Source: a virus. From it: 24,780 bases of DNA. The notes beneath the pieces are model-generated. The model was not told the DNA's origin. It did not search any database and saw nothing but the letters and a program-made list of their open reading frames with translations. The first letter of the stretch is position 1; the number at the start of each line of letters is the position of its first letter. A program made the position numbers and the translations under genes. Below are positions 3,399-9,662 of this stretch, one piece after another. The stretch lies in the IMG/VR virus record IMGVR_UViG_3300021197_000883, positions 1 to 24,780 of that record; one strand, 5' to 3'.

Positions 3399-3719
3399 AT
3401 GGATTATAACCAATCACTATTAAATGCTCGTTACAATCAAGATGATAAAAATGAGCATGTCTATACAATCTTTGAGCATGAACTTGCTAGAGATCTACAC
3501 ACTTACAAACCACATGAGAGGCAAAGTATAAATGCCCTCGAAAAGTTTATTTTATATGCTAAAGAAATTTACGCAGAATTTGAAATGTCTGGCGATGTCT
3601 GGGATTTTTCAAATGAAGTAGTAGAGGCTACTGAAAATGCAATTATAACTTGCAATGAGTGGGATAAACAAAAACACACTAATGTTAAACATTTTAATGG
3701 AGGAAATTATTATGGGTAG
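3399..3719 (+). CDS. Hypothetical 106-aa protein
   Basis: The start has a clear AGAGGA ribosome binding site and lies just after a promoter candidate. The protein is acidic and predicted mostly helical, with a stretch rich in Glu, Ala and Tyr at about residues 45-80 and a Gly/Tyr-rich end (GGNYYG). No motif is recognised. Its end overlaps the start of the next gene by 8 bases. It lies between the methyltransferase and the single-strand annealing protein, so an early accessory role is likely but not specified by sequence. Confidence 0.65.
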   Translation: MDYNQSLLNARYNQDDKNEHVYTIFEHELARDLHTYKPHERQSINALEKFILYAKEIYAEFEMSGDVWDFSNEVVEATENAIITCNEWDKQKHTNVKHFNGGNYYG

Positions 3720-5523: not shown

Positions 5524-5871
5524 ATGAAAATGACATGCCCACATTGTAAGAAACCGTATGAGGTGAGCGTAACAATAAAACCACCAACTAAAGAGGAGTT
5601 GATTGAGTTTGAAATATTTAGAGATAATTACAAAGGTAAAAAGCGTGGCTTGATCACCGAAATGAACAACTTTGTAAAAAAACATACTGACTGGCGAGAA
5701 GTTCTTATGACACTCAACAGACTGTACATAGACTTTGGTACGGAATCAAAATACATTCCACATTTCCAGACCTTTATTAATCAAAGGCAATGGGAAATGT
5801 TTGACATTAAATCACAAAGAAAGACTAAGCCATATGTAAAAGAATTTAATTGGAGGAAAGACAATGAATAG
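5524..5871 (+). CDS. Putative replication initiator / helicase-loader subunit
   Basis: The 115-aa protein starts with a CPHC knuckle (C5, C8) without a second cysteine pair, then a helical middle. Its C-terminal signature YIPHFQTFINQRQWE (77-91) strongly recalls the IPHPSTWLNQERWE motif at the end of many phage replisome organisers that bring DnaB to the origin. AGGAG precedes the ATG. The helicase gene lies two genes downstream, supporting a loader role. It lacks its own clear DNA-recognition domain, which the upstream 108-aa protein might supply. The motif is confident; the biochemical role is inferred. Confidence 0.6.
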   Translation: MKMTCPHCKKPYEVSVTIKPPTKEELIEFEIFRDNYKGKKRGLITEMNNFVKKHTDWREVLMTLNRLYIDFGTESKYIPHFQTFINQRQWEMFDIKSQRKTKPYVKEFNWRKDNE

Positions 5872-7787: not shown

Positions 7788-8145
7788 AATGAAACAACAA
7801 GATGGCAAACCATTGGAAGATTGGGTAAAGCATTACGAACTTACTTTAACAAGGCTTGGTGATGATTGGAGTCCTTTAACAAAAAATGATAGTCGGTATG
7901 AAGTTATAAATTTAGCAAGTGTATGGAAATATTTTCGCAATCAAGAACATAATAGAAGTAGACACATTGAAACAGGTACTGTTGAAGTTGAGTTTCATGA
8001 TGATAGTTGGGATGATAAATTTAATGACAAAAAAATACACAAGTTGTTACATGATAAAAAACTGTACGCAATGGAACTCTTGTTACAAGAATATTTGAAT
8101 CGATTTATAATTGAAATAAATGAATGGGAAGATGATGATGAATAA
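7777..8145 (+). CDS. Hypothetical 122-aa protein
   Basis: The ATG lies within the last codons of the helicase gene and follows GAAGAGG at good distance. The protein is hydrophilic, rich in Asp, Lys and His, with a predicted helical C-terminal third ending NEWEDDDE. Residues 15-27 (DWVKHYELTLTRL) look helical. No family is recognised. Overlap on both sides places it in the replication operon; a helicase accessory function is possible but not shown. Confidence 0.6.
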   Translation: MTSRMKQQDGKPLEDWVKHYELTLTRLGDDWSPLTKNDSRYEVINLASVWKYFRNQEHNRSRHIETGTVEVEFHDDSWDDKFNDKKIHKLLHDKKLYAMELLLQEYLNRFIIEINEWEDDDE

Positions 8146-9019
8146 AAACTCACTATATTATATTAATGAGCCTACCTGTATTAGTTTTTCTGGAGGACGA
8201 ACTTCTGCATATATGCTACATAAGATATTAGAGGCACATGATGGTGATCTTCCAGAGTTTGCTAAGATTACTTTTGCTAATACAGGCAAAGAAATGCCTC
8301 AGACTTTAGACTTTGTTAGAGATGTAGGTGTTAACTGGGGTGTTGATATTGTCTGGCTTGAAAGATATGCTAGAAAATCCAGGGATGATGAAAAAAACAA
8401 GTATGCCTATGACACTAAAGTTGTTACTTATGAAACTGCTAGTCGTAATGGGGAGCCTTTTGCAGCACTTATTAAAGTTAAAAGATATGCACCAAATCCT
8501 GTTGCTAGATTCTGTACTGCTGATTTAAAGATTAGGGCTATTAAGGAATACCTAGTTGATCAATGTGGTTTTGAAACACCTTATACTTCTTTCATTGGCA
8601 TCAGAGGTGATGAAGTAAGAAGGGCTGTAAAAATGAATGGCACTATAGAAAGTGGTCAAGAAAGATATTTACCTTTGTATCTAGAGGGTGTTACTGCTAA
8701 AGATGTGGGTAAATTTTGGGATCAGAATAATTTTGATCTAGAATTACCAAACAATAATGGAGTTACAGATTGGGGTAATTGTGACTTGTGTTTTTTAAAA
8801 GGGCATAAAAAGAAGCAAAGTATAATACGGGCTAGACCAGAACTTGCTGATTGGTGGATTCAGCAAGAAGAATCTTTATCTAAGGAAGTTGGTAAGGCTG
8901 CATTCTTTAGATCTGATCAACCAAGCTATAAAGTAATGCAAACTATAGCTTTAGAGCAAACTAGTATCTTTGATGATATTTTTGATGACGAAACCATACC
9001 TTGTTTTTGTGGAGATTAA
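8135..9019 (+). CDS. PAPS reductase-like PP-loop protein
   Basis: The 294-aa protein belongs to the phosphoadenosine-phosphosulfate reductase / PP-loop ATP pyrophosphatase superfamily. The signature SGGRTS (19-24) binds the ATP or PAPS phosphates. Downstream are RFCT with C127, GIRGDE (155-160), CDLC (C216, C219), and a terminal CFC pair (C290, C292) suitable for an iron-sulfur cluster or thiol chemistry. Related phage proteins are widespread; proven relatives act in sulfate reduction, tRNA thiolation and, as DndC, DNA phosphorothioation. Other Dnd genes were not seen. Several ATGs in a row (8132, 8135, 8138) follow GGGA; 8135 is a compromise. The substrate here is unknown. Confidence 0.85.
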   Translation: MMNKNSLYYINEPTCISFSGGRTSAYMLHKILEAHDGDLPEFAKITFANTGKEMPQTLDFVRDVGVNWGVDIVWLERYARKSRDDEKNKYAYDTKVVTYETASRNGEPFAALIKVKRYAPNPVARFCTADLKIRAIKEYLVDQCGFETPYTSFIGIRGDEVRRAVKMNGTIESGQERYLPLYLEGVTAKDVGKFWDQNNFDLELPNNNGVTDWGNCDLCFLKGHKKKQSIIRARPELADWWIQQEESLSKEVGKAAFFRSDQPSYKVMQTIALEQTSIFDDIFDDETIPCFCGD

Positions 9020-9021
9020 TG

Positions 9022-9171
9022 ATGAAATTTAGCTTAAAATTTATATTTATATTGTTTATAATTGGGTTATTGACTGCATGTAATACGACACAAGAACAAC
9101 TACAATGTCATCCTATAGAAGTCAATGAGTGTATTGGTTGGTTGGGCGATAAGCCTATCATGTTAGAATAA
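9022..9171 (+). CDS. Small 49-aa lipoprotein
   Basis: This short gene, read directly from the sequence, starts after GGAG with a 7-base gap. It has a basic-then-hydrophobic signal segment (residues 2-17) ending in the lipobox LTAC with C20 as the lipidated residue. The mature 30 residues contain two more cysteines (CHPIEVNEC) that could form a disulfide, then GWLGDKP. It overlaps no other gene and follows the PAPS-reductase-like stop by two bases. Small phage lipoproteins can block superinfection or act as spanins; neither is shown here. Confidence 0.65.
   Translation: MKFSLKFIFILFIIGLLTACNTTQEQLQCHPIEVNECIGWLGDKPIMLE
9142..9169 (+). promoter_or_regulatory. Weak promoter candidate for the structured RNA
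   Basis: TAGAAT (9164-9169, five of six matches) with TTGGGC (9142-9147, three of six) and a 16-bp spacer would start transcription near 9175, exactly at the base of the outer stem of the RNA element. The overlap with the lipoprotein gene and the weak -35 keep confidence low. Confidence 0.3.
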
Positions 9172-9173
9172 CA

Positions 9174-9305
9174 GTTATAAGAAATTAGGGTACTCTAATG
9201 TTTATATGCCCGAGGGCATGGCATTACATATTAAGTGCTTACAACTTAGGTTTTTTCCTCCATAATTTTTCCTAAGTCTTAATCAGTACCCTAATCTGTT
9301 ATAAC
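9174..9305 (+). ncRNA. Three-way-junction structured RNA element
   Basis: Three stems fold the whole 132-base stretch. P1 pairs 9174-9194 with 9285-9305 (19 of 21 positions). P2 pairs TAATG (9196-9200) with CATTA (9222-9226) and inside it ATGCC (9206-9210) with GGCAT (9215-9219). P3 pairs ATTAAG (9230-9235) with CTTAAT (9278-9283) and ACTTAGG (9244-9250) with CCTAAGT (9271-9277) across an 8-base bulge. Junction strands are only 1, 3 and 1 bases. The P3 loop shows TTCCTCCATAA, containing the anti-Shine-Dalgarno core CCTCC. It lies between two small genes. No T-run follows P1, so it may be processed from the operon RNA. Strand is assumed plus; the class is not recognised. Confidence 0.6.
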
Positions 9306-9319
9306 AAGGGGAGAGAAGT

Positions 9320-9427
9320 ATGGAAAAGGTAATGGAAGTAGTAAACACAATCTTAAAAAATAGATCCTTAACAATTTTCTTAGGTGTGTGTGTCGTAGCT
9401 TTATTCTTTGGATGGGTTGGTGGATAA
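9320..9427 (+). CDS. 35-aa single-pass membrane peptide
   Basis: This short gene, read directly from the sequence, has GGGGAGAG just before its ATG. The peptide has a charged amphipathic start (MEKVMEVVN), then a hydrophobic segment (about 17-33) ending FGWVGG. It overlaps the next gene. It comes directly after the structured RNA, which could control it. A small membrane peptide is supported by initiation signals and hydrophobicity; its role is unknown. Confidence 0.5.
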   Translation: MEKVMEVVNTILKNRSLTIFLGVCVVALFFGWVGG

Positions 9428-9662
9428 CATAAACGACAATATTAAAAACCCCTCACACTATACTCAAGGCAAGATAGAGGCTAAGACATTTATTGTTGAC
9501 CAAGATATGACATGGGCAGTTGGTAACGCAGTCAAGTATCTTGTTAGATATAGATGGAAACATAAAGGTGAGGGGCAAATTCATGATTTACGGAAGAGCA
9601 TAGAAAACATTCAAATAGAAATTGATAAACTATTGGCTCTAGATAGAGATGGCAAGGTATAG
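9408..9662 (+). CDS. DUF3310 family protein
   Basis: The protein (84 aa from a TTG at 9408) carries the DUF3310 pattern: NPSHYTQG near residue 14, AVGNAVKYLVRYRWKHKG at about 37-54, then DLRKSIENI. This family is common in phages of many hosts and is sometimes labelled a nucleotide kinase-like protein, without firm proof. The start is uncertain: TTG 9408, TTG 9417 and GTG 9420 are all in frame, and none has an ideal ribosome binding site, so coupling to the 35-aa gene that it overlaps is likely. It sits in the replication module beside RusA. Confidence 0.8.
   Translation: MDGLVDNINDNIKNPSHYTQGKIEAKTFIVDQDMTWAVGNAVKYLVRYRWKHKGEGQIHDLRKSIENIQIEIDKLLALDRDGKV

Follow-up and report, generated by a model that had tools for sequence, protein, structure and literature searches.

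Does the 132-base gap between two small phage genes hold a functional RNA, and if it does, does that RNA serve the genes on either side or act independently of them? The gap lies at 9174-9305 of the window, the whole 24,780-nt stretch of IMG/VR virus record IMGVR_UViG_3300021197_000883 that was analysed, and the 132 bases fill the space from the stop codon of a 50-aa ORF (9171) to the Shine-Dalgarno sequence (SD) and start codon of a 35-aa ORF. The first-pass annotation had drawn three stems here, P1, P2 and P3, joined by junction strands of 1, 3 and 1 nt, and all of them are present in the sequence as it described them. P1 pairs 9174-9194 with 9285-9305 at 19 of 21 positions; no inverted repeat found in the window is longer or more complementary. 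P3 consists of two stems (9230-9235/9278-9283 and 9244-9250/9271-9277) and an 8-nt bulge, TGCTTACA, at 9236-9243. The features of the locus are as follows.

9019-9171, + strand: upstream gene, a 50-aa lipoprotein-like ORF with its stop just 5′ of P1; no family match
9174-9305, + strand: whole structured RNA element; fold z = -5.1, recovered by covariance models R1 and R2
9174-9194, + strand: P1 5′ arm, GTTATAAGAAATTAGGGTACT; 8 of its 19 pairs show two-sided compensatory changes among 17 divergent homologues
9196-9226, + strand: P2 hairpin, variable; inner stem 9206-9210/9215-9219, outside it TAATG/CATTA
9222-9246, + strand: conserved internal core, CATTACATATTAAGTGCTTACAACT; family motif RGYAYURCAUUUAGUGYUUMCA
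9230-9283, + strand: P3, with the 8-nt bulge and a long apical extension (9244-9277); one two-sided pair in the upper stem
9255-9265, + strand: proposed anti-SD loop, TTCCTCCATAA; present in the window, unconserved even among relatives 94-95% identical
9285-9305, + strand: P1 3′ arm, AGTACCCTAATCTGTTATAAC; compensatory changes as in the 5′ arm, G-U:A-C = 40:2
9306-9322, + strand: SD and start of the 35-aa ORF, AAGGGGAGAGAAGTATG; start codon 15 nt past P1
9320-9427, + strand: downstream 35-aa membrane peptide ORF; no convincing family match
9408-9662, + strand: DUF3310 gene (PF11753, 40.5 bits), used to collect relatives

The neighbourhood in the window is a lambda-like replication/nin region with a DnaB-type helicase, a NinC-like protein of the PAPS-reductase family, DUF3310 and RusA. 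Within it, 8120-9662 forms a nin-like block of the NinC-like PAPS reductase, the lipoprotein-like ORF (with a CHP...C motif), the 35-aa membrane peptide and DUF3310, and the small membrane ORFs of this block gave no convincing family match. No tRNA or tmRNA was found in the RNA region, and no separate promoter was recognised near it. Another inverted repeat, AAGGGCTTTTGTTTA / TAATTAAAAGCCCTT, its arms 82 nt apart, was seen at the left contig end (30-141).

The window RNA folded at -38.5 kcal/mol; 200 dinucleotide shuffles averaged -21.6 ± 3.3 (z = -5.1), and none of them folded as well. Its minimum-energy fold has an interior slightly unlike the one first drawn, while those of L049, L056 and L112 are the same P1/P2/P3 three-way junction and that of L108 is nearly so. 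Energy alone cannot assign the strand, since the opposite strand of 9174-9305 folds about equally well (z = -4.9). Wobble pairs are more informative: across homologues, G-U/U-G combinations fill 40 cells at P1 pairs and A-C/C-A combinations only 2, which points to the + strand, the same as that of the flanking genes, as the RNA. On these sequence patterns the + strand is very probably the transcribed strand of the element. The same asymmetry at P1 led us to reject a DNA palindrome. An inverted repeat acting as DNA, either a protein-binding palindrome or the ends of a mobile element, would fit the resemblance of the P1 arms to 21-bp terminal repeats and the clean presence or absence of the element at one site. 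However, G-U pairs are conserved in P1, the element keeps a sense orientation to the upstream gene, and its interior changes while the pairing of the helix persists, so that this explanation is extremely improbable.

Relatives were collected by searching viral contigs with the neighbouring DUF3310 protein, which gave 80 loci of graded divergence, about half of them carrying the RNA. Scanning the collection for sequence patterns taken from the element added many further members, in new gene contexts. About 40 distinct members were obtained in total, from marine phages that included lambda-like ‘nin’ regions and an N4-like phage. Covariance model R1, built from 17 short-type members and no window-type sequences, found the window RNA at 9175-9307 (56.6 bits, E = 1.9e-8) as well as other window-type members. 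R2, built from 32 members with window-type sequences again excluded, recovered the window RNA with E = 5.7e-9. All 29 new loci tested from a scan with the pattern UAGGGCAU scored with R1 (E from 9e-11 to 0.02); they hold this pattern by construction, and it is the score added by the remaining P1 and the motif that counts as support. A scan with GGGUAY returned mostly chance matches or other hairpins and one clear new member, L287 (E = 2.8e-9).

The family is widespread in marine phages and usually occurs once per phage genome. Each positive record that was scanned held a single sense-strand copy, and six related records of 34-46 kb held none. The same gene pair occurs without the RNA in L041-L044 and with it in L108, a clean absence. 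Several RNA-less loci among L052-L065 retain TAGAGGGTACTTTAAT between an HNH gene and the SD of the 35-aa ORF; this sequence is similar to the 5′ arm of P1 and may have been left behind when the element was deleted. When the 80-aa membrane protein that follows the RNA at some loci was used as a query, only four of the 80 loci found had the RNA, three of which were already known, so the RNA and that gene are not coupled. Among isolate phages, the near relatives searched gave no DNA match for the window or for L092, and two isolates matching the gene after the L120 RNA were without the RNA. No copy was found in 200 bacterial genomes of one phylum, a set that had no positive control, and of the four pattern matches in a collection of 84,980 species, none scored with the model.

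Support for the helix came from covariation. In the 17 divergent members, 8 of the 19 P1 pairs showed two-sided changes, 95.0% of the P1 cells were paired (84.3% in shuffles), and 36 cells were two-sided, against 10.7 in shuffles, a count reached by 0 of 500 shuffles. Sliding the register lowered pairing in the same set to 39-48% in every register. For a 12-pair core of P1 across 32 members there were 47 two-sided cells, against 14.4 in shuffles, and the slid controls collapsed there too. The 12 window-type members had two-sided changes in P1, P2 and upper P3. Within this clade they affected three of the five pairs of the inner P2 stem and one pair of upper P3 (A-U to G-C), and lower P3 was neither supported nor opposed because it is invariant there. 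In the alignment, P2 of L002 and L010 was largely unpaired. The search for compensatory changes that the first-pass annotation had set as its own refutation test thus found them in P1, P2 and P3.

The window RNA combines compensatory changes in P1 with the motif UAGUG(Y)UU and is recovered by a model independent of it. It is virtually certain that it belongs to a real structured RNA family. That family is very likely to be new to Rfam: with Rfam 15 no match at the gathering threshold was found for the window and 13 further loci, and on this basis a known RNA family was rejected. At E <= 10, the window and L092 gave sub-threshold matches only, to eukaryotic miRNA and snoRNA models. The homologues and these Rfam negatives bear out the earlier description of the element as structured, phage-borne and of no known class.

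The role first proposed for it fared less well. The first-pass annotation saw an anti-SD sequence in the P3 loop and suggested that the RNA may block early-gene translation or mimic the 16S rRNA tail. Its exact pairing with two ribosome-binding sites is literally true in the sequence, the loop being complementary over 10 nt to 3697-3706 and over 9 nt to 5851-5859, and CTCC occurs in 9 of the 12 window-type loops. The complementarity is nevertheless weak evidence, because other 10-nt matches exist (e.g. at 1778) and any CCUCC pairs with SD sites. TTAATAA replaces CCUCC in L005, L008, L009, L010, L011 and L035, of which L005, L008, L009 and L035 are 94-95% identical over the RNA. CCTCC was found in just 4 of 42 distinct members, so that no unpaired anti-SD sequence is conserved and the loop is not supported as a working part. 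No member outside the window clade has the P3 extension that bears it. With CCUCC lost in close relatives and the extension missing elsewhere, a family-wide anti-SD role was rejected, and an anti-SD regulatory RNA is highly improbable. We suggest that the CCUCC loop is a decoration of one lineage. What looked like an anti-SD loop was misleading, and it is the conserved internal motif that deserves attention.

Across the family, P1 has a conserved core, UAGGGYAY/RYRYCCUA, and the interior has a conserved motif, UAGUG(C/U)UU(M)CA, in its fullest form RGYAYURCAUUUAGUG(C/U)UU(M)CA. GTGYT was present in 36 of the 42 members (shuffle mean 6.0) and GTGCTT in 21 (shuffle mean 0.6). The interior enclosed by P1 ranges from ~35 to ~90 nt, with P2 and the P3 extension present in some members and absent in others. 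An alternative inner hairpin, P2b (RGYAYU/AGUGCU), averages 4.36 pairs against 3.73 in shuffles and is plausible in many members. It is mutually exclusive with lower P3, the two local hairpins competing for the internal motif, and a conformational switch between them is possible. A pseudoknot between the motif and the downstream SD (CUUCC/GGGAG) was considered by eye in a few sequences: pairing with GGGAG is possible in L012 and L084, but motif and tail vary independently in L083, L084 and L092, and the CUUAC of window-type members does not match this pairing. The motif is no more complementary than shuffles to the 16S, 23S and 5S rRNA of E. coli, used in place of the host's, and we propose no target on this basis.

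Other hairpins resembling the element were also observed. Those at L257:6569-6636, L284:1040-1109 (- strand), L273, L281, L285 and L291 share a closing helix, TAGGGTAC/GTACCCTA, whose 5′ arm contains a stop codon and which is directly followed by an SD. They have another conserved interior (AATAGTTAGTCGAGGA...ATAGTAATAAGC), fold with z = -3.4 and -4.6, and might represent a second class, related to the first, that occurs in other phages. The record of L066 contains two more hairpins similar to P1, L141 and L142, which enclose hardly any interior and each lie just before an SD; they may be reduced forms of the element.

The position of the element relative to genes is regular, and the genes themselves are not. 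It lies just past an upstream stop: in all 24 loci measured the stop of the upstream ORF falls from 20 nt before to 14 nt after the start of P1, and in 20 of them the next AUG is 10-20 nt past P1. Stop positions were similar in 16 further loci, where the next start was mostly at +3 to +19 nt. Upstream genes include lipoprotein-like ORFs, DUF1364-type HNH (phrog_131), NinB (phrog_72), a 51-aa basic ORF and a weakly XhlA-like ORF. Downstream there are membrane peptides of 35-36 aa and 80 aa, a weakly holin-like protein, small acidic or basic ORFs and an SSB gene. In L244 and L247 the order is O-like replication protein, HNH, RNA, 36-aa membrane peptide and NinB, and L229 and L247 continue into terminase. 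L092 comes from an N4-like phage, with an N4-like RNA polymerase, DNA polymerase, primase and SSB.

Some members have no start codon close behind them. In L048 the downstream start is at +132 nt, with U-rich hairpins in between, and in the N4-like loci L083, L084 and L092 the SSB start is ~170 nt past the RNA, with a terminator-like hairpin in between. The stretch after the L092 RNA (L092:12810-12950) is non-coding and holds further hairpins (GACGCTAGTCC..., GCGGTGCTCCGCACCG) and the terminator-like hairpin before the SSB gene. The L287 RNA (836-919, - strand) lies ~130 nt after a 143-aa ORF on the same strand, a 3′-UTR-like position. An ORF on the opposite strand ends inside its P1, CCUUUUUUG follows right after P1, and there is no same-strand gene close behind. 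Judged by this arrangement, the L287 RNA is the best candidate for a stand-alone transcript.

In each member of this new family of phage structured RNAs, the long closing helix P1 encloses a short, variable and usually hairpin-bearing interior that displays UAGUG(C/U)UU(M)CA. From the sequence comparisons we propose, with a probability of about 40%, that these RNAs function as gene-independent modules, most likely as stable, trans-acting non-coding RNAs. The RNA would be made as part of an operon transcript and fold after the upstream ribosome leaves. P1 and the internal motif would then be recognised by a factor, probably a protein or RNA of the host, that unrelated marine phages have in common. 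The RNA, either persisting or excised as a stable non-coding species, would act in trans and not control one particular downstream gene. A gene-independent RNA is favoured by the loci with no adjacent start (L048, the N4-like loci and L287), together with the single copy, the unrelated phages and the optional presence. Against this reading, in most members a start codon follows the end of P1 by 3-20 nt, as a translation-linked element would also predict. That no separate promoter was recognised near the window RNA also counts against it, as does the unremarkable complementarity of the motif to E. coli rRNA.

Close behind comes the rival view that the RNA acts in cis, on mRNA processing, translation or antitermination. 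The most plausible version, which we consider a substantial possibility short of even odds, is an intercistronic regulator whose P1 ends hold the upstream stop and the downstream SD, and in which folding, or the binding of a ligand or protein at the motif, sets the translation or stability of the next gene, as in a riboswitch-like or protein-bound leader. The next AUG 10-20 nt past P1 in 20 of 24 loci, and 3-19 nt past it in most of 16 more, argues for this, as do the end of P1 near or at the SD and the many downstream genes that encode small membrane peptides. In compact phage genomes, however, every intergenic element falls between a stop and an SD. The downstream genes are moreover unrelated, which argues against a gene-specific switch, and none is nearby in L048, L083/84/92 and L287. 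The earlier suggestion of a leader for the 35-aa peptide holds for part of the family, the remaining members being followed by unrelated genes or by no close gene at all. Since some members lack a neighbouring gene downstream, we favour a gene-independent module over such a leader.

Other cis roles have less in their favour. Bacteriophage T7 uses several RNase III sites, irregular hairpins between cistrons and close to SDs, and the irregular P1 might similarly be cut by RNase III or a similar enzyme, or shield transcript ends, as in T7 early mRNA. The ~20-bp irregular helix between cistrons and the nearly interior-free hairpins like P1 that precede SDs in a related record (L141, L142) fit such a processing or mRNA-stability site, which is nonetheless unlikely, as there is one copy per genome against several in T7 and the conserved internal motif is left unexplained. 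The RNA could also act while nascent, like the put RNA of HK022, modifying RNA polymerase as the transcript emerges so that it passes downstream terminators, for example from replication/nin into late genes. This would agree with its location between replication/nin and terminase genes in L229 and L247, with the terminator-like hairpins after it in L092 and L048, and with its single copy and gene independence. We regard such an antiterminator as improbable, since the L287 RNA follows a gene and has a convergent gene behind it, and no terminator-like site was recognised downstream of the RNA in the window.

To return to the trans-acting RNA, its more specific form is tentative: a single-copy non-coding RNA, exchanged between lambda-like and N4-like marine phages, that might target a conserved component of their shared hosts through UAGUG(C/U)UU(M)CA. 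Little is known of structured RNAs in phages of uncultured marine bacteria. The covariation, the wide spread over unrelated gene neighbours and phages, and the optional and nearly always single-copy presence point to a general job in infection.

Comparison with known systems gives several partial likenesses. The T7 RNase III sites and the phage RNA are both irregular intercistronic hairpins near SDs, but the phage RNA is single copy and has a conserved internal motif. The manA and wcaG motifs are orphan structured RNAs of marine phages whose function is unknown or inferred (PMC2864571). They precede metabolic or stress genes; the phage RNA has no Rfam match. The closest architecture known to us is the rpsB leader (RF01815, RF00127), with a long P1, a junction, a conserved joining strand and two stems that vary and may be missing (PMC2704228). 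The two are alike in the layout of P1 and junction, and the rpsB leader is also common in marine alphaproteobacteria. The phage RNA differs in not lying upstream of rpsB. As to a J2-3/3′-tail pseudoknot, the few sequences considered by eye gave some possible pairings but uncorrelated changes. Neither the window nor L092 matched the t44 and rpsB leader models at E <= 10; with the same tool, the E. coli locus scored 83.5 bits with t44. The put RNA of HK022 is a phage RNA that acts as a structured nascent transcript (PMC9378689). Compared by description and not by sequence, it is like the present RNA in being phage-borne, structured, gene-independent and in few copies, and differs in that the present RNA sits late in the replication/nin region. 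By analogy, it is possible that the phage RNA works as the put RNA or the T7 RNase III sites do.
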